Shown: positions 25,098 to 31,791 of the stretch, one piece after another
Layout: every line of letters starts with the position of its first letter
Position numbering within the stretch: the first letter of the stretch is position 1
Assembly: GCA_902779865.1 (NCBI GenBank)
Contig: CACZDG010000067.1
Span: 1-34,190, forward strand
Source: an uncultured bacterium
GTDB lineage: Bacteria; Verrucomicrobiota; Kiritimatiellia; RFP12; UBA1067
Direction: 5' to 3'
Length of the DNA: 34,190 bases
Notes under the pieces: model-generated
The model's input: the letters and a program-made list of their open reading frames with translations, nothing else
Database searches by the model: none
What the model was told of the DNA's origin: nothing
Made by a program: the position numbers and the translations under genes

Positions 25098-25700
25098 TTA
25101 TTCGTCGGCAAGCTCCGCCTCGACAATGGCTATCGCCTTCTCGACGCGAAACTTGATCTGGCGGAGATAGTTGTTGTCGATGCCGAACTCCCCGCACACC
25201 TCTTCCGCTGATTTTCCCTCCAGAACGTGTGCGCGATAGACCGCCTTGGTCTTGGCAGAAAGCGCGGTCTTTGTAAGAACGTGCTCCACCGCCACCTCAT
25301 GCCTCGCCTTGTCCCACGCAAGATCGAGCGCAGCACCCTGTTCCGGCTGAACGGAAGGTTCGTCCGTCAACTCGTCCATCGGAACGGTTTCACCCGCGCC
25401 ATGGGCCCGTTCATATCGGTATATCCCGATAAGCTGCCGCCGTATGAGCATCTTCAGGAACGTACGGAACTGCGCCTTCTCCGCCTTGTACTTCCGCTCC
25501 TCCAGAATCTTCACCAGATGGATGTACACTTCCTGAACCACGTCATCAGGATCGTGGTTATGGTCGATCAGTTGGACGAAACGCTTCATCGCCGGCGTGT
25601 AAAGGTCGAAGAAGCGAACCCACGCCGCATCGTTTCCGCCAGTTGCCTCGACGGCCAGTTTCTGGATAAGCGTATATGATGTGGTAGGGAATACGCTCAT
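25098..25700 (-). CDS. ECF-type RNA polymerase sigma factor
   Basis: From ATG 25700 the product is 200 aa. Region 2 is visible in WVRFFDLYTPAMKRFVQLID, DPDDVVQEVYIHLVKIL and AQFRTFLKMLIRRQLIGIYR (about 25-100). Region 4 is visible in LSAKTKAVYRAHVLEGKSAE plus VCGEFGIDNNYLRQIKFRVEKAI (about 150-195). It directs RNA polymerase to a specific promoter set. The ATG overlaps the kinase stop by four bases (ATGA), so control by that kinase is likely, as in known kinase-linked ECF groups. The frame runs upstream to 25856 inside kinase coding sequence, and that extension was rejected. No anti-sigma gene is present. Confidence 0.85.
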   Translation of the reverse strand: MSVFPTTSYTLIQKLAVEATGGNDAAWVRFFDLYTPAMKRFVQLIDHNHDPDDVVQEVYIHLVKILEERKYKAEKAQFRTFLKMLIRRQLIGIYRYERAHGAGETVPMDELTDEPSVQPEQGAALDLAWDKARHEVAVEHVLTKTALSAKTKAVYRAHVLEGKSAEEVCGEFGIDNNYLRQIKFRVEKAIAIVEAELADE

Positions 25701-26770
25701 TTCATTACCTCGAATATGCCCTCTGCGCCAAAGGCTGCGGCAAACTCTTCCTCCGGCGACTGAGGTTGAGTGGGTTTGCGGAGAGCAAACCATACCGACA
25801 CGAAAACGGCGGCGGTCGCGGCGAAGACTCCACCAAAAATGACGGTAGCATTCCACGGCAACTTCCTCCTCTTCGGCGTTGCACCGCTTTGCGCATTTGG
25901 TGACTGGCCCTCACTGGGCTGGATAACTGCTTTCGCTTCGGAGGCGGGTACTTCCAGGAGTTTCGCCAACGCGCATAGATCGACTGGGCGTTCCGCAGGG
26001 GCTTCTGCAAGCATCTGCGGCAACACATTCACCCATGGCAGCTCAAGCGTCTCAAGGAGTTCAAGCGCCCGTGAACCGGGCTCATACCAAATGCCGGTAA
26101 GAAGATAGACGATCATCACGGCGAACGAATACACGTCGGCAGCCGGAGTAGCCTCCTCGCCGCGTTCCACCTCCGGCGCCATGTAGCCATGGGTGCCCAT
26201 TATTAGGCGCGAGTTCCTCGCCTCCGTAACCATTGTGGTGGAGGCCCTGACCTCGTTGCGAAGCCTGTCGGAGAAAAAACGCAACACGCCGAAGTCGGAA
26301 AGTATGACGTGCTTATCCGCGGAGAGCAGCACGTTGCTCAGCTTGATGTCACGGTGGACGATTCCCTCGGCGTGGATGTAGTCGAGGGCGGACGCAAGTT
26401 CCGTAAACCACCCGAACACGAACTCCTCGTCAAGGTCGGACACTTCGACATCGGCGAGAGTGTGCGGGGAACCGTCCTTGTAGGCTACGAGATCCATTAC
26501 AAAGTACGGCGTCTGGGTCGCCTCGTCAAAGTTGAGGTCGAACACGCGTACGACATTTGGATGGTGGAGCCGAGCAAGAACCCTGCCCTCGGCAAGGAAC
26601 TTGTCCTTCAGAATATCGGTGTGACCGTCTTCGAGCGTGAACGACTTCAGCGCATAGTGGACGCCGAGCTGCGTATGCACAACCTCGTACACCGCCCCCA
26701 TCGCACCTTTGCCAAGGAGTCGGACGATGCGGTACACGCCGATCGTGTCATCTGGATTGAATTCTGCCAT
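25697..26770 (-). CDS. Membrane-anchored Ser/Thr protein kinase (Hanks type)
   Basis: The 357-aa product has a complete kinase domain: glycine loop LGKGAMGAVYEV (19-30), Lys42 in YALK, catalytic Asp141 in HRDIKLSN, DFG at 159-161 and MAPE near 197-200. A single membrane segment lies at about 306-330, and a short acidic C-terminal tail follows outside. All catalytic residues are present, so it should be active. The extracytoplasmic part is only about 25 residues, so it is unlikely to be a classical sensor. Its ATG shares a base with the stop of the FAD gene (TAATG), and its stop overlaps the sigma ATG. It probably phosphorylates the sigma factor or a regulator of it. Confidence 0.9.
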   Translation of the reverse strand: MAEFNPDDTIGVYRIVRLLGKGAMGAVYEVVHTQLGVHYALKSFTLEDGHTDILKDKFLAEGRVLARLHHPNVVRVFDLNFDEATQTPYFVMDLVAYKDGSPHTLADVEVSDLDEEFVFGWFTELASALDYIHAEGIVHRDIKLSNVLLSADKHVILSDFGVLRFFSDRLRNEVRASTTMVTEARNSRLIMGTHGYMAPEVERGEEATPAADVYSFAVMIVYLLTGIWYEPGSRALELLETLELPWVNVLPQMLAEAPAERPVDLCALAKLLEVPASEAKAVIQPSEGQSPNAQSGATPKRRKLPWNATVIFGGVFAATAAVFVSVWFALRKPTQPQSPEEEFAAAFGAEGIFEVMK

Positions 26771-29394
26771 TAGTTCCCGTAGGCACGGATTTCAAAGATG
26801 CGCGCGGAGGGATCGCCCCAGGTCTCGTTCACGGTCACACGCAAGGCGTCGAGACTGATGGGCAGGAAGTGATGCACGCGGTGACGGAGCTGGTTTGCCG
26901 AGTCCCCGCCAAGGCGCACCCACTTGCCATCCACGAGCCCTTCCACGATGTATGACTTCACGAGCGAACGCGGACGCGGCGAGGCACGGACGGTCGCGAA
27001 GTCGGGATCGAACGCAATGCGCACCTCGCTCACGGAAACGGTCGAGGGGAAGTCGAGCCGCACCCACTGTGGAAGCCCCTTCGACGCGTCGGAAATCCAT
27101 CCGTGGTAAACGCCATCCTCGTTACGCGCCACGCCGTCGATGACGGCGACCGCGCTGGAGCCGATGTCGCGCTCAAGCGCGGGTTCCGTGACGAAGGAAT
27201 ACTCTTCGCCGCCAACCGGAGTCCACTTCCCGTTGTCCACGCCGCAGTAGGCCCGAAGGTCGGAATGCCCCGTCGTCCCCTCGCGCAGGTACCAGGCAAT
27301 TCCCGGCGCAGGCACAAGTTCCACCCAGACGAACCGCGCGTTCAGCGCAATCGGCTTCGTCGGGTTGAAGAACCGGACGAGTCCGTCGCGACCGTCGGGG
27401 ACGATCGCCTTCAGGACGGCGGCAGGCTCGCCCTTCGGACGCCACGCCGCATCGTCCGTCAGATAGACCTTCGCCGTCAGCTCCACCGGCTTCTTTCCCG
27501 TGTTCTGGAGATTCAGCAAGACCGTGTCGAGCCGCCGCGAATCGCCGCGCTCGAACCGCACCGCCCGGCGGAAGCCCGCGCACTTGTGCGCAAGCTTGTC
27601 CGCGCGGCGAAGCCCGGGACTGGACGCGTCGAACCGGACATGGCGCGGCTCGCAGTCGGCGGACGTCACCTTCGCCGTCCGCGCGAGGTCAAGCGGATCC
27701 TCGTTCGCGAGATGCGGGATGTACTGGTCGTCCTTCAGGAGCTGCTGCTGAAGTTCCTTGATGTGGCGCTCGCCGCACGCGCGCGGCGTGATGCCGTGCT
27801 TGGCGGCGATGGCCGCCGCCGTGCCGGCGGCCTGCCCGAGCTGGAAGAGCGTCGACTGCACGCGGATCGTGCCGAGCGCGATGTGCGTGGCGCTGATGGA
27901 ACGTCCGCAGAGGAAGAGGTTCGAGATGTTCTTCGAGTAGATGCAGCGGTAGGGGATCGAATAGATCGGCACGTGCGGATGGTTGCGCCAGTAACCGTTG
28001 CCGGTCGGATTCTCCATGCCGAGCGGGTCGTGCGTGTCGAGGCTCCAGCCGCCGTACGAGATGCGGTCGGGGAACATCGTCCCCTTCAGCGCGTCGTTCG
28101 CCGTCATCACGTAGTCGCCCACGAGGCGGAACCCCTCGCGCCGCGCGTTCTTCCACGCGATCTCTGCCATATAGGCGTTCGTCGCCTTGTCTTTGACGGG
28201 CGATTCGTTCTTGATCCATCCCCAATACGCGAAGGAAATGCGAACAAGCTGATCGCGCGCGCGCTCCGGGTCCTCAAGGTCGTTGAAGCGTCCGTTGTTC
28301 TCCATCCACCAGGCGCCCCTGAGCCCGTGTACGCGCCGCGTGAAACCCTTCGGCAGCACGTCGGCCCACGCGGGCGTCTCGTATTTCACGGGATGGTCGG
28401 CGTAGGCATGGCGGTAGCCCACGAGGCCGTCCTTCATCACGCAGCCGCTCATGGTGATCTCGTCGCGCTTGTCCGGCGCGGGCGCCTCGTTGTATTCGTC
28501 CCGTGCCTCGCGTCCGTGCATGTACTCCGCGCCCGCGAAGATGCCGAGCCAGCCGTCGCCCGTGCCGTCCGCGAAATAGCGCCCGCTGAAACGCGTCTGC
28601 GCGCCCGTGAGCGTGTTGCGCGAGACGACAGCGGCGATGGCGTTGCCGTTCTTCTCCGCCGACACCACGCGCTCGTTAGGGAACTCGAAGAGCCAGCCCT
28701 TCAACTCGTCCGCCATCTGCCGGTAGGCGTCGCTGTACGTCCATCCCGCGCGAATGAAGCGGCGCATCTTCGCCTCGCAGACGAGCCCCGATTCGCGTCC
28801 CTTGCGTCCGGCCCCGTTCAGCGACACCTGCATCTCGCAGCTGGAGTTGCCGCCGAGCACGGGACGGTCATGGACGAGCGCGACGCGCAGGCCGTTCCGC
28901 GCCGCCGCAAGCGCCGTGCCGAGCCCGCCCGGACCCGCCCCCACCACGACGAGGTCAAACGCCCCGCCGTCTGCGATCTTGTCGCCGTCGCCCGTGAGGC
29001 GCTGACGCTCCGCCGCAAGCGCCTTGGGTTCCTCCGGCGGCACGTACGAAAGGTCGGTCGTGAAGAGGAGCGCGTCACAGCGCGTCATCGCGCCAGTGAG
29101 ATCGACGAGCTTGACATCGCACGCGCCGGCGTTGAGCGTGAACTCGCCCGCCTTCTCCCACATCCATCCCTCGCGGCGCGACGCGCCGAGCGTGCCGCTG
29201 CGCTTGCCGGCGACCTCGACCGCGAACTTGCCGGGCGAGAACTCCGGCAACCAGTCCTTCGTGCGCGCCCACACGCGCCACGTTCCCGCACGCGGGATCG
29301 TGACTTTCGCGGATGCCGGGGCGACGGGCTTCAGCACGCCCGGCGCGAGCAGGTACGCGCTCCCCATCTTGTGCGTGAACTGCGTATCGACCAC
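26770..29394 (-). CDS. FAD-dependent oxidoreductase (PF12831-like) with discoidin-like tail
   Basis: From GTG 29394 the product is 874 aa. An N-terminal beta domain (about 1-115, VDTQFTHKMGSAYLLAPG, WRVWARTKDW) precedes the FAD domain with VVVGAGPGGLGTALAAARNG (150-169) and VLGGNSSCEMQV. Later come LFLCGRSISATHIALGTIRV and a C-terminal F5/8-type domain (about 730-874). Such proteins accompany glycan-degradation genes; the substrate is unknown. The family's N-terminal GGWVVDTQF begins before this GTG. The codons upstream read E-A-amber-NFANYGGW in the same frame as the GH78 gene, so the true gene is probably the second half of a fused protein. On its own it has no signal peptide and only a weak ribosome binding site. 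Confidence 0.85.
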   Translation of the reverse strand: MVDTQFTHKMGSAYLLAPGVLKPVAPASAKVTIPRAGTWRVWARTKDWLPEFSPGKFAVEVAGKRSGTLGASRREGWMWEKAGEFTLNAGACDVKLVDLTGAMTRCDALLFTTDLSYVPPEEPKALAAERQRLTGDGDKIADGGAFDLVVVGAGPGGLGTALAAARNGLRVALVHDRPVLGGNSSCEMQVSLNGAGRKGRESGLVCEAKMRRFIRAGWTYSDAYRQMADELKGWLFEFPNERVVSAEKNGNAIAAVVSRNTLTGAQTRFSGRYFADGTGDGWLGIFAGAEYMHGREARDEYNEAPAPDKRDEITMSGCVMKDGLVGYRHAYADHPVKYETPAWADVLPKGFTRRVHGLRGAWWMENNGRFNDLEDPERARDQLVRISFAYWGWIKNESPVKDKATNAYMAEIAWKNARREGFRLVGDYVMTANDALKGTMFPDRISYGGWSLDTHDPLGMENPTGNGYWRNHPHVPIYSIPYRCIYSKNISNLFLCGRSISATHIALGTIRVQSTLFQLGQAAGTAAAIAAKHGITPRACGERHIKELQQQLLKDDQYIPHLANEDPLDLARTAKVTSADCEPRHVRFDASSPGLRRADKLAHKCAGFRRAVRFERGDSRRLDTVLLNLQNTGKKPVELTAKVYLTDDAAWRPKGEPAAVLKAIVPDGRDGLVRFFNPTKPIALNARFVWVELVPAPGIAWYLREGTTGHSDLRAYCGVDNGKWTPVGGEEYSFVTEPALERDIGSSAVAVIDGVARNEDGVYHGWISDASKGLPQWVRLDFPSTVSVSEVRIAFDPDFATVRASPRPRSLVKSYIVEGLVDGKWVRLGGDSANQLRHRVHHFLPISLDALRVTVNETWGDPSARIFEIRAYGN

Positions 29395-29418
29395 CCAGCC
29401 GCCGTAGTTCGCGAAGTT

Positions 29419-29421
29419 CTA
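29419..29421 (-). other. In-frame amber codon joining GH78 and FAD coding regions
   Basis: Minus-strand codons read GTG TGG CTG GAG GCG TAG AAC TTC, followed by GCG AAC TAC GGC GGC TGG, with no other stop in the same frame before 26770. The TAG stands where Glu (GAG) is expected in the EAEnF...GGWVVDTQF motif. A single base change would restore one continuous 1673-codon gene. Confidence 0.75.
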
Positions 29422-31791
29422 CGCCTCCAGCCACACGAATCCCGGCACCTTCTCCTTCGCCTCCTCCGCTGGCGCGCGGAACAGGTCGTTCACGCATACG
29501 CGGCTTGGCGATTCGCCCTTGATCATGCCTCCGCAGGTGACGAAATACGTCTCCTCGCCGGATTCCTGCAGCGCGTCGGGAAGATCAGGCAGACGCACGG
29601 TCGCGGTCGTCCCCTTCGGCACGGACACCTTGACCTCGATCCCGCCGTCCACGCGCCGCCATGCGACGCGGATGTCGCCGCCCGGGACGGCGTGGCTCAC
29701 CTTCACCCAGTCGAGTCCCGGCAGGAACTCCGGCGCGACGGTGAACGTCTTGAATCCCGGTGCCGTGCGCTTGATGCCGCCGAGCGAGCCGTAGAACCAG
29801 TTCACGATGTCCGCCATCATGAAGTGGTTGAAGGACGATCCCTCGCGGCAGTCCCACGCCTCGTGGCAGGTCGTGTTGCCCTTCGCGACCATGTACCCGT
29901 AGCCGGGCTTCGTCGTGTCCGCCGTCATCTCGAAGATCACGTCGCTGCAGCCGTTCTCGGCAAGCACCTGGAGAAGATACGGATAACCGATCTCGCCCGT
30001 GCCCACCGCGCCGCGCCCGCGCACGTCCTCCACGATGTTGGAGACAATCGCCGCCGTCTCGGCCGGGTCGGCGAGCCCGAACGCGAGCGCCATCGCGTTC
30101 GCGGTCTGCGAATTGTTTTCGTAACAGTGCCCCTGCGGATTCCACCACTTCGCGTTGAACGCCTTCTTGATGTTCGCGGCCTCCGCGCGGAACGCGGCCG
30201 CCTCGTCCTTCTTGCCAAGGATGTCGGCGCACTTCGCGAGCGTCGCGGCGTTGAGGTAGTAGAAGGCCGTGGCGGTGAAGTCGATGGATGTCTTGCGGAG
30301 CGGGCGCTTCTCGGTGGAGACGGTCTGCTGGTACCAGTCGCCGAGTCCGCCGGGCGTGATGAACCTCCCGCGCTTCTCGTTCTGCGACTGCGAGCGGATG
30401 TACTTGTGGTAGGCGACCATGTTCTTCCAGTAATCGCGGATGAGCGACGTGTCGCCGGTCCATTCGTACTGCTGCCAGGGAATCTGGATGATCGACGAAC
30501 CCCATTCGATCGAATGGCGGAATCCGCCGCGGAACACAGTGTACTCCGGCGCAATGTCCGGCACCATCCCGTCCGCGAGCTGTGAATCGGCAAGGTCCAT
30601 GCACGTCTTCGCGAACATCGCGTCCGCATTCCAACCCCAGCGGATCTGGTCGGCGTGGATATGGTCCTGCTCCTGCCAGCCGAGCTTCTCGCGGTGCGGA
30701 CAGTCCGTAAACACGCTCTGCATGTTGGAGCGCTGCGCCCACCAGCAGATGTCGTGAATCTGGTTCAAAAGCTTGATCGAGCACTCGAACGTGCCCGCAC
30801 GCGGCGCGTCCGCCATCACCACGCGCGCCTCAGACGAAACGAGCGTCGGCAACTTCCCGCCCTTCTCCGCCGCAAAGAGGCGCACCTTCATGTAGCGGAA
30901 ACCGTAGTAGAAGAACGGCGGCGTAAACGACTCGTCGCCCGTGCCCGCGAGCGTGAACGCGCAGCGCGCGGCCGTGCCGTGGTACTCGCCCGGCTTCTTC
31001 GTAATGCGCGTCTCACCCGGTCGGAGCGGAATCTCGGAGAACTCAATCTCCACGCGGCTCCCGCGCGGGCCTTTCGCGACAACCGTCGGCACGTACGCGG
31101 CGTTCTGCCCGAAATCGACCGTCAGCTCGTCGTCCGACACGCGCATCGTCCGCACGGGCTTATGCACCTCCTGCAACCGACACACAAACGGGGCCTCCCT
31201 CAACTCGCCCTTCGGCGCCTCCGCCACTTCGGGGTGGCGGGCTTCCATGCCCGCGTCCGCCACCACCCGATGATCAATATCATCCCCGCTGTACACGTGC
31301 GTGCGCACAACCTCGCTCGGCGACACCTTCCACCCCTCCACCGACGACTTCACCACGCCGCCGACGATGAGCTTCTTCTCGCCCTCGCTGCCGACGAACT
31401 TCGTGTAGAGTCCCTTGCCAGGCTTCGGTACGTTGTACATCCCGTTACCGAGCGTGATGGCAAGCGTGTTCTCCACGCCCGCCTTGAGCGCGGGCGTGAA
31501 AACATTGTAGAAGCACGTCTTCGTCGAGCGCGTCCAGCCGGGGAGGTTGAACTCGTCGCCGCGCCCGAGGGGCTTGCCGTTCAGCGTGGCGACGTACTGC
31601 CCGAGACCGCAGATCGCGATCTCCACAGGGCCATCCCTCTCCACCTTGAACGTCGTCGTGAACCGCGGCGCCGCCGCGTTCAGCTCCTTCGGCTGCTCGA
31701 TCCACCGCGCGCCCTTGAAGAGCTCACCAGCGTCCTTTGCACTTGCCAACGCGGCGACCGCCGCCACCGCAACCATCATCATTTTTTTCAT
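29419..31791 (-). CDS. GH78 family alpha-L-rhamnosidase, secreted
   Basis: The 790-aa product has a signal peptide (about 1-18). N-terminal beta-sandwich domains follow, with GLGQYVATLNGKPLGRGDEF at about 62-81. The (alpha/alpha)6 catalytic barrel carries FTDCPHREKLGWQEQ (361-375), whose Asp363 and Glu368 fit GH78 catalytic positions, GGLGDWYQQ, and GNTTCHEAWDCREGSSFNH with Glu644 as the likely second catalytic residue. A C-terminal beta domain ends near residue 760. It hydrolyses alpha-L-rhamnosides in the periplasm or outside the cell. AGGAG lies six bases before the ATG. The last residues, VPGFVWLEA, are not typical of GH78 but are the usual start of the FAD family encoded next, and the amber stop here is in frame with that gene. 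Confidence 0.9.
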   Translation of the reverse strand: MKKMMMVAVAAVAALASAKDAGELFKGARWIEQPKELNAAAPRFTTTFKVERDGPVEIAICGLGQYVATLNGKPLGRGDEFNLPGWTRSTKTCFYNVFTPALKAGVENTLAITLGNGMYNVPKPGKGLYTKFVGSEGEKKLIVGGVVKSSVEGWKVSPSEVVRTHVYSGDDIDHRVVADAGMEARHPEVAEAPKGELREAPFVCRLQEVHKPVRTMRVSDDELTVDFGQNAAYVPTVVAKGPRGSRVEIEFSEIPLRPGETRITKKPGEYHGTAARCAFTLAGTGDESFTPPFFYYGFRYMKVRLFAAEKGGKLPTLVSSEARVVMADAPRAGTFECSIKLLNQIHDICWWAQRSNMQSVFTDCPHREKLGWQEQDHIHADQIRWGWNADAMFAKTCMDLADSQLADGMVPDIAPEYTVFRGGFRHSIEWGSSIIQIPWQQYEWTGDTSLIRDYWKNMVAYHKYIRSQSQNEKRGRFITPGGLGDWYQQTVSTEKRPLRKTSIDFTATAFYYLNAATLAKCADILGKKDEAAAFRAEAANIKKAFNAKWWNPQGHCYENNSQTANAMALAFGLADPAETAAIVSNIVEDVRGRGAVGTGEIGYPYLLQVLAENGCSDVIFEMTADTTKPGYGYMVAKGNTTCHEAWDCREGSSFNHFMMADIVNWFYGSLGGIKRTAPGFKTFTVAPEFLPGLDWVKVSHAVPGGDIRVAWRRVDGGIEVKVSVPKGTTATVRLPDLPDALQESGEETYFVTCGGMIKGESPSRVCVNDLFRAPAEEAKEKVPGFVWLEA

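Follow-up and report, generated by a model that had tools for sequence, protein, structure and literature searches.

A premature amber codon in a GH78 rhamnosidase-FAD_oxidored fusion gene of an uncultured Kiritimatiellia bacterium

Introduction

GH78 alpha-L-rhamnosidases are characterised by the Pfam rhamnosidase domains N, concanavalin-like, 6H and C, and their members related to the enzyme analysed here include PDB 6i60, 3w5m and 6gsz. The protein described below shares these domains, but differs in carrying a C-terminal FAD_oxidored module, an arrangement found in four genomes of one genus among the loci that were read. Our literature search found nothing on a GH78-FAD or GH-FAD_oxidored fusion.

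In one of these genomes the fused frame is interrupted by an amber codon. Bacterial genes carrying a single nonsense mutation are alike in having one in-frame stop, intact relatives and an open downstream frame with past constraint, whereas the stop described here breaks a two-enzyme fusion near the junction and probably leaves the upstream enzyme whole. Artefactual pseudogenes in public assemblies, the subject of Cooley and Wright 2024 (PMC11017572), are alike as well: the assembly is a draft, it shows one stop inside the gene, and the gene is intact in relatives. Assembly errors are reported there to inflate internal-stop counts in public genomes, but the sampled portion of the present genome has no excess of such stops. 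Among the papers listed by a literature search on amber readthrough, most concern engineered suppression.

One reading frame with two enzyme modules

The window, by which we mean the whole stretch of 34,190 nucleotides that was analysed (contig CACZDG010000067.1), belongs to a 4.3-Mb draft genome of 272 contigs that is 92% complete and 3.19% contaminated. Some relatives of this bacterium come from rumen and gut samples. On the reverse strand, positions 31791-26770 form a continuous reading frame that ends in a TAA at 26772-26770 and is broken just once, by the TAG at 29421-29419 (residue 791 of the frame). An earlier note on this DNA had described the TAG as the sole break in the combined frame, and indeed no other stop occurs before the TAA. 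Around the amber codon the frame reads VWLEA*NFANYGGWVVDTQF. A Pfam scan divides it into a GH78 part (Bac_rhamnosid_N, Bac_rhamnosid, 6H and C) and a FAD_oxidored part.

The GH78 module occupies 29512..31791 (reverse strand; its 3' limit is approximate). The six-hairpin catalytic domain (Bac_rhamnosid6H, 1.3e-95) is accompanied by the N, concanavalin-like and C domains, all above their cut-offs, and these companion domains together with the catalytic one place the protein in GH78. Its start ATG has an upstream pairing score of -7.4 kcal/mol and is followed by a hydrophobic leader that we read by eye as a signal peptide. Downstream of the stop, the orphaned FAD_oxidored frame (26770..29418, reverse strand) runs for 882 codons plus the terminal TAA without any other stop. 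It holds a full-length match to FAD_oxidored (PF12831; 235.9 bits against a cut-off of 27, positions 1-416 of 416) at 28956-27739, and a weak Golvesin_C-like match at about 29415-29089 that falls under its curated cut-off. Among solved structures no close relative of the FAD part was found, only matches to short nucleotide-binding stretches.

A predicted Ser/Thr protein kinase gene follows the FAD frame on the same strand (25697..26770). Because its ATG overlaps the FAD stop (TAATG), the kinase is possibly translationally coupled to the FAD frame. In relative G012 the kinase start is kept, about 58 residues are missing and the frame changes near the contig end (L087:1-400), while the sequence 3' of the FAD frame differs from the kinase of the window in G014 and also in G010, whose contig has 272 bases there.

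The fusion is intact in three relatives

GH78 protein matches at 1e-60 or better were found in at least 58 of 144 related genomes, with at most seven candidates scored per genome. The junction DNA was matched over its whole length in four of the 17 genomes searched in the genus, the window genome included. The other three, G010, G012 and G014 (contigs CACWIW010000075.1, CADCOC010000141.1 and CAMKJU010000106.1; 92-93% identity), encode GH78 and FAD in one open frame of 1,691-1,701 codons. At the amber position all three have GAG (Glu), with flanking residues identical to those of the window, and the fused protein reads VWLEAENFANYGGWVVDTQF. The earlier note had suggested looking for GH78-FAD fusions with Glu at this site and had put the TAG one base away from the expected GAG. 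These three relatives bear out both points, and they also give what identifies a nonsense allele, as the gene is unbroken in them and an amino acid is encoded where the window has its stop (GAG in 3/3). Since three genomes of the same genus are continuous here, with identical flanks and GAG for TAG, the continuity of the frame is not due to chance. We also considered whether GH78 and FAD had been brought together in a chimeric contig, and ruled this out, as the same join occurs in three other assemblies. On the evidence of these alignments, the gene descends from a GH78-FAD_oxidored fusion common to four genomes of one genus; the fusion is inherited and the TAG was seen in the window genome only.

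Outside these genomes, the flanks of GH78 in ten others with close orthologues (68-88% identity) contained no FAD match at 1e-10 within the stretch read around GH78; in G011, GH78 itself is in two contig-end pieces. A relative in which GH78 and FAD are separate genes and the TAG is shared, which the earlier note had named as a refutation, was absent among the loci read, a set that excludes the long GH78 frames of G022, G102 and G012 (C30).

A gene caller would report this locus as a GH78 gene and a FAD gene lacking a true start, a warning against the two-gene reading. Within this lineage, the locus is to be taken as one fused protein and not as two genes.

The stop lies inside FAD-derived sequence

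Stand-alone orthologues of the FAD part were found in G038 (75%) and G002 (77%, with the contig ending at query residue 828). Their N-termini consist of a hydrophobic leader, again read by eye as a signal peptide, followed by VSPCREYVN or VSPCREFVN, then FRAPA and WLEAE. After the leader, the G038 protein continues as VSPCREYVNHAFRAPA, a segment that is present in the fused proteins and is similar to 30 residues of the window immediately 5' of the stop (SPSRVCVNDLFRAPAEEAKEKVPGFVWLEA; 29422..29511, reverse strand), which we recognised as the N-terminal segment of the FAD module by this likeness to the G038 and G002 orthologues. The presence of this segment inside the fused proteins indicates that the FAD module was joined without its leader, and that the TAG lies 30 residues inside FAD-derived sequence. 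The earlier note had placed the stop at the boundary of the two enzymes, which does not hold, as FAD-derived sequence starts about 30 residues upstream. The C-termini of three stand-alone GH78 proteins were also compared: that of G038 stops just before the FAD-type segment, and those of G085 and G033 continue into unrelated tails. A FAD protein with its own signal peptide had been named as evidence against a fusion. Proteins with such a putative signal peptide do exist in G038 and G002, yet they leave the fusion unrefuted because no FAD gene lies in the stretch read around the GH78 genes of these two genomes.

Glu is also the usual residue at the amber position in the wider FAD family, as the earlier note had expected. 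Among 25 distinct N-termini, picked by motif from the loci analysed and including paralogues, 22 have Glu, two have Pro and the window has TAG. An amber stop at this position was found in none of the three fused relatives and in none of the 24 other distinct N-termini.

Selection on the two modules

To date the stop, we used a codon alignment of the four fused genomes and assigned changes to a branch at sites where the sister has the same state as G010 and G012. Between the window and G014, dN/dS is 0.15 both in GH78 and in FAD. On the window branch, the FAD part has 20 synonymous changes against 9 non-synonymous ones (24.3 and 15.7 on the G014 branch). Neutral evolution would give 2.4-3.0 non-synonymous changes per synonymous one, and the probability of nine or fewer out of 29 is then 9e-7 to 1e-5. 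As the observed ratio is far under neutral, the FAD body was under selection for most of the window branch. A model with dN/dS otherwise fixed at 0.15 disfavours constraint having been absent over more than about 0.2-0.3 of the branch, the limit varying with the assumed transition rate. The relaxation downstream of the stop that would mark an old nonsense allele is thus absent, which fits only a very recent stop. Because the FAD frame is both free of stops and was under purifying selection on this branch, the stop should either have arisen very recently or be a base error, unless it is bypassed in some way.

In GH78, the window branch has 54 synonymous and 25 non-synonymous changes and the G014 branch 29 and 5. 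This relative excess of non-synonymous change on the window branch is unexplained by a recent stop. In the stretch of about 45 codons that leads up to the TAG, five synonymous and seven non-synonymous changes are private to the window (Fisher test against the 25 non-synonymous and 54 synonymous changes of GH78, p = 0.10). Compared with G014, this stretch (29422-29553) has a dS of 0.48 and a dN of 0.16, denser than both flanks. Its unusual divergence does not sit well with a recent stop, and could mean that the split is older or that these codons evolve freely.

Synonymous divergence between the window and G014 falls from 0.27 in GH78 (29512-31791) to 0.12 in FAD (26770-29418), where G010 and G012 remain at 0.28-0.29. 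Such a pattern suggests that recombination has occurred, with one breakpoint close to the junction.

TAG is used as an ordinary stop codon

The use of TAG in the genome was assessed in a 434-kb sample that covers roughly one tenth of it and is made up of the window plus 20 pieces of large contigs, each 20 kb long. TAG ends 32 of the 179 gene-like frames in this sample. A gene-like frame follows in phase after the stop in 13 of the 179, and in 12 of these an ATG lies within 12 codons, as is usual for adjacent genes, the window TAG being the exception. The earlier note had proposed looking for internal in-frame TAG codons elsewhere in the genome; the sample contained no second split frame of the window type, in a search that misses frameshifts and stops fewer than 80 codons from the gene end. 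Genome-wide recoding of TAG was rejected, since TAG is neither a rare terminator nor frequent in frame in this sample. The fused gene of G014 itself terminates in TAG, and another gene follows.

No tRNA with a CUA anticodon was present among 42 tRNA hits, a set that is incomplete (for example, it has no isoleucine tRNA). Release factor RF1 is present, just above the cut-off (455 bits versus 423). The RNA after the stop folds like its shuffles (z of 0.07 and 0.83), and GAG relatives, cut one base later, gave 0.45, 0.40 and -0.61. Our searches for a suppressor tRNA, TAG recoding and a readthrough stem-loop therefore found none, and the TAG is best read as a normal terminator.

In-frame TGA codons were flagged in the FAD relatives G035, G001 and G007, and in G035 and G001 the first stop seen is the natural protein end. 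Internal stops were also flagged in more distant matches, namely the FAD loci of G022 and G026 and the GH78 loci of G051 and G059; the reading of stops covered G035 and G001. One distant GH78 match (G059:C215:4505-6670) has two TGA and one TAG inside, and is probably a decayed gene or poorly assembled.

Explanations for the amber codon

We consider a recent nonsense mutation, private to this genome and affecting a genus-specific fusion, to be the probable explanation, if only by a modest degree. The earlier note had offered this reading, in which a nonsense mutation has recently divided a secreted fusion of two enzymes, beside readthrough and a sequencing error; the fusion and the Glu codon in three relatives agree with it, and the selection analysis fits either a recent stop or an error. 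The main rival, that the TAG is a sequencing, assembly or strain-mixed consensus error and that the organism has an intact fusion, seems to us doubtful but deserves serious weight. The window is one base off its three relatives, the downstream frame is open and constrained, and since the TAG occurs in one genome only, a base error would look the same. The draft state of the assembly, with its 272 contigs and its levels of completeness and contamination, and the internal stops that assembly errors are reported to add to public genomes (PMC11017572), also speak for an error. Against it, the absence of another split frame in the sample, drawn from the largest contigs, indicates that the assembly does not look rich in such errors, and it is mainly on this ground, as a matter of judgement, that we prefer a mutation.

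A further explanation is that the split is functional, with GH78 ending at the TAG and a still-selected FAD protein made separately. The first possible restart codon is a GTG (29392..29394, reverse strand) right after the conserved GGW, as the earlier note had observed, and the first in-frame ATG 3' of the stop is at 29365..29367 (reverse strand). That note had seen no good ribosome binding site, which is true of the ATG at 29367 (no upstream pairing, +0.3 kcal/mol) but not of the GTG at 29394, where a weak GGCGG lies upstream and the pairing of -5.0 kcal/mol is near the median of -5.3 for 70 long-ORF starts. This pairing, the constraint on the FAD frame and the overlap of the kinase start with the FAD stop would suit a functional split. 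However, a quarter of random positions reach -4.8 kcal/mol, nearly as good as the GTG. Products of either restart would be without the conserved beginning: the GTG loses eight conserved residues including GGW, and the ATG 17. They would also have no leader, in keeping with the lack of a downstream signal peptide in the earlier note, whereas the stand-alone orthologues of G038 and G002 have hydrophobic ones. No promoter-like site was found in 29000-30000, where the scan expects about none by chance too. We regard a functional split as improbable. Readthrough of the TAG at some frequency, yielding both GH78 and GH78-FAD, is in our view very improbable. Here too the constrained frame after the stop is in favour, and as the tRNA set is incomplete a suppressor tRNA could sit in the missing part; but no CUA anticodon was detected, RF1 is present, TAG serves as an ordinary stop, the RNA after it has no unusual fold, and the three fused relatives have no TAG here. 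The amber readthrough that the earlier note had listed as an option accordingly found no support. A leaky amber switch, in which most ribosomes would stop to give free secreted rhamnosidase and a minority would produce a secreted rhamnosidase-FAD fusion, has the slimmest chance; if true, it would provide two enzyme forms from one gene despite ordinary TAG termination.

In the ancestral fusion, as the comparison shows, a FAD oxidoreductase lacking its own leader was joined in frame to the C-terminus of a rhamnosidase whose export is suggested by leaders read by eye. In the window gene a GAG has changed to TAG, 30 residues into the FAD-derived part, and under the preferred reading this is a very recent real mutation. 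The GH78 enzyme would now be secreted with 30 extra residues at its end and would probably have kept its activity, and the FAD part would be unmade, or made in small amounts as a leaderless cytoplasmic protein by restart at GTG 29394. The best reading is that FAD is lost or crippled and GH78 is left with a short tail. The whole looks like an ordinary recent mutation or base error, with no new decoding trick.

FAD_oxidored is joined to other glycan-active enzymes

The loss of one part of a gene is ordinary. What is more interesting is that the same bacterial family joins FAD_oxidored to other glycan-active enzymes too. Apart from the window genome itself, 14 more FAD loci had long frames, and five of these were covered by a Pfam scan, one of the five (G063) by way of an earlier locus. 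In G042 (L190:1500-6332), GH28, AXE1 and FAD_oxidored are in one frame; FAD_oxidored is C-terminal of its partners as in the window, but the partner enzymes differ. G071 (L201:598-4428) and G063 (L149:1012-4701) carry, N-terminal to the FAD module, some 500 residues that match no Pfam family at 1e-3 and that may be agarase-like. These cases suggest repeated joining of the FAD class to glycan-active enzymes. The intact GH78 fusions, together with the GH28-acetyl xylan esterase-FAD protein of G042, hint that this class of FAD oxidoreductases acts on glycans, perhaps on rhamnose- and galacturonate-containing pectin. Such a role can be tested, and as a lead it is of more use than the amber codon. 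In G003 (L191:1574-5503), an AzlD membrane-protein match precedes FAD_oxidored in the frame and a Glyco_hydro_2 match follows it; the AzlD-FAD arrangement may be a genuine fusion, or else an open frame that happens to run through two genes.
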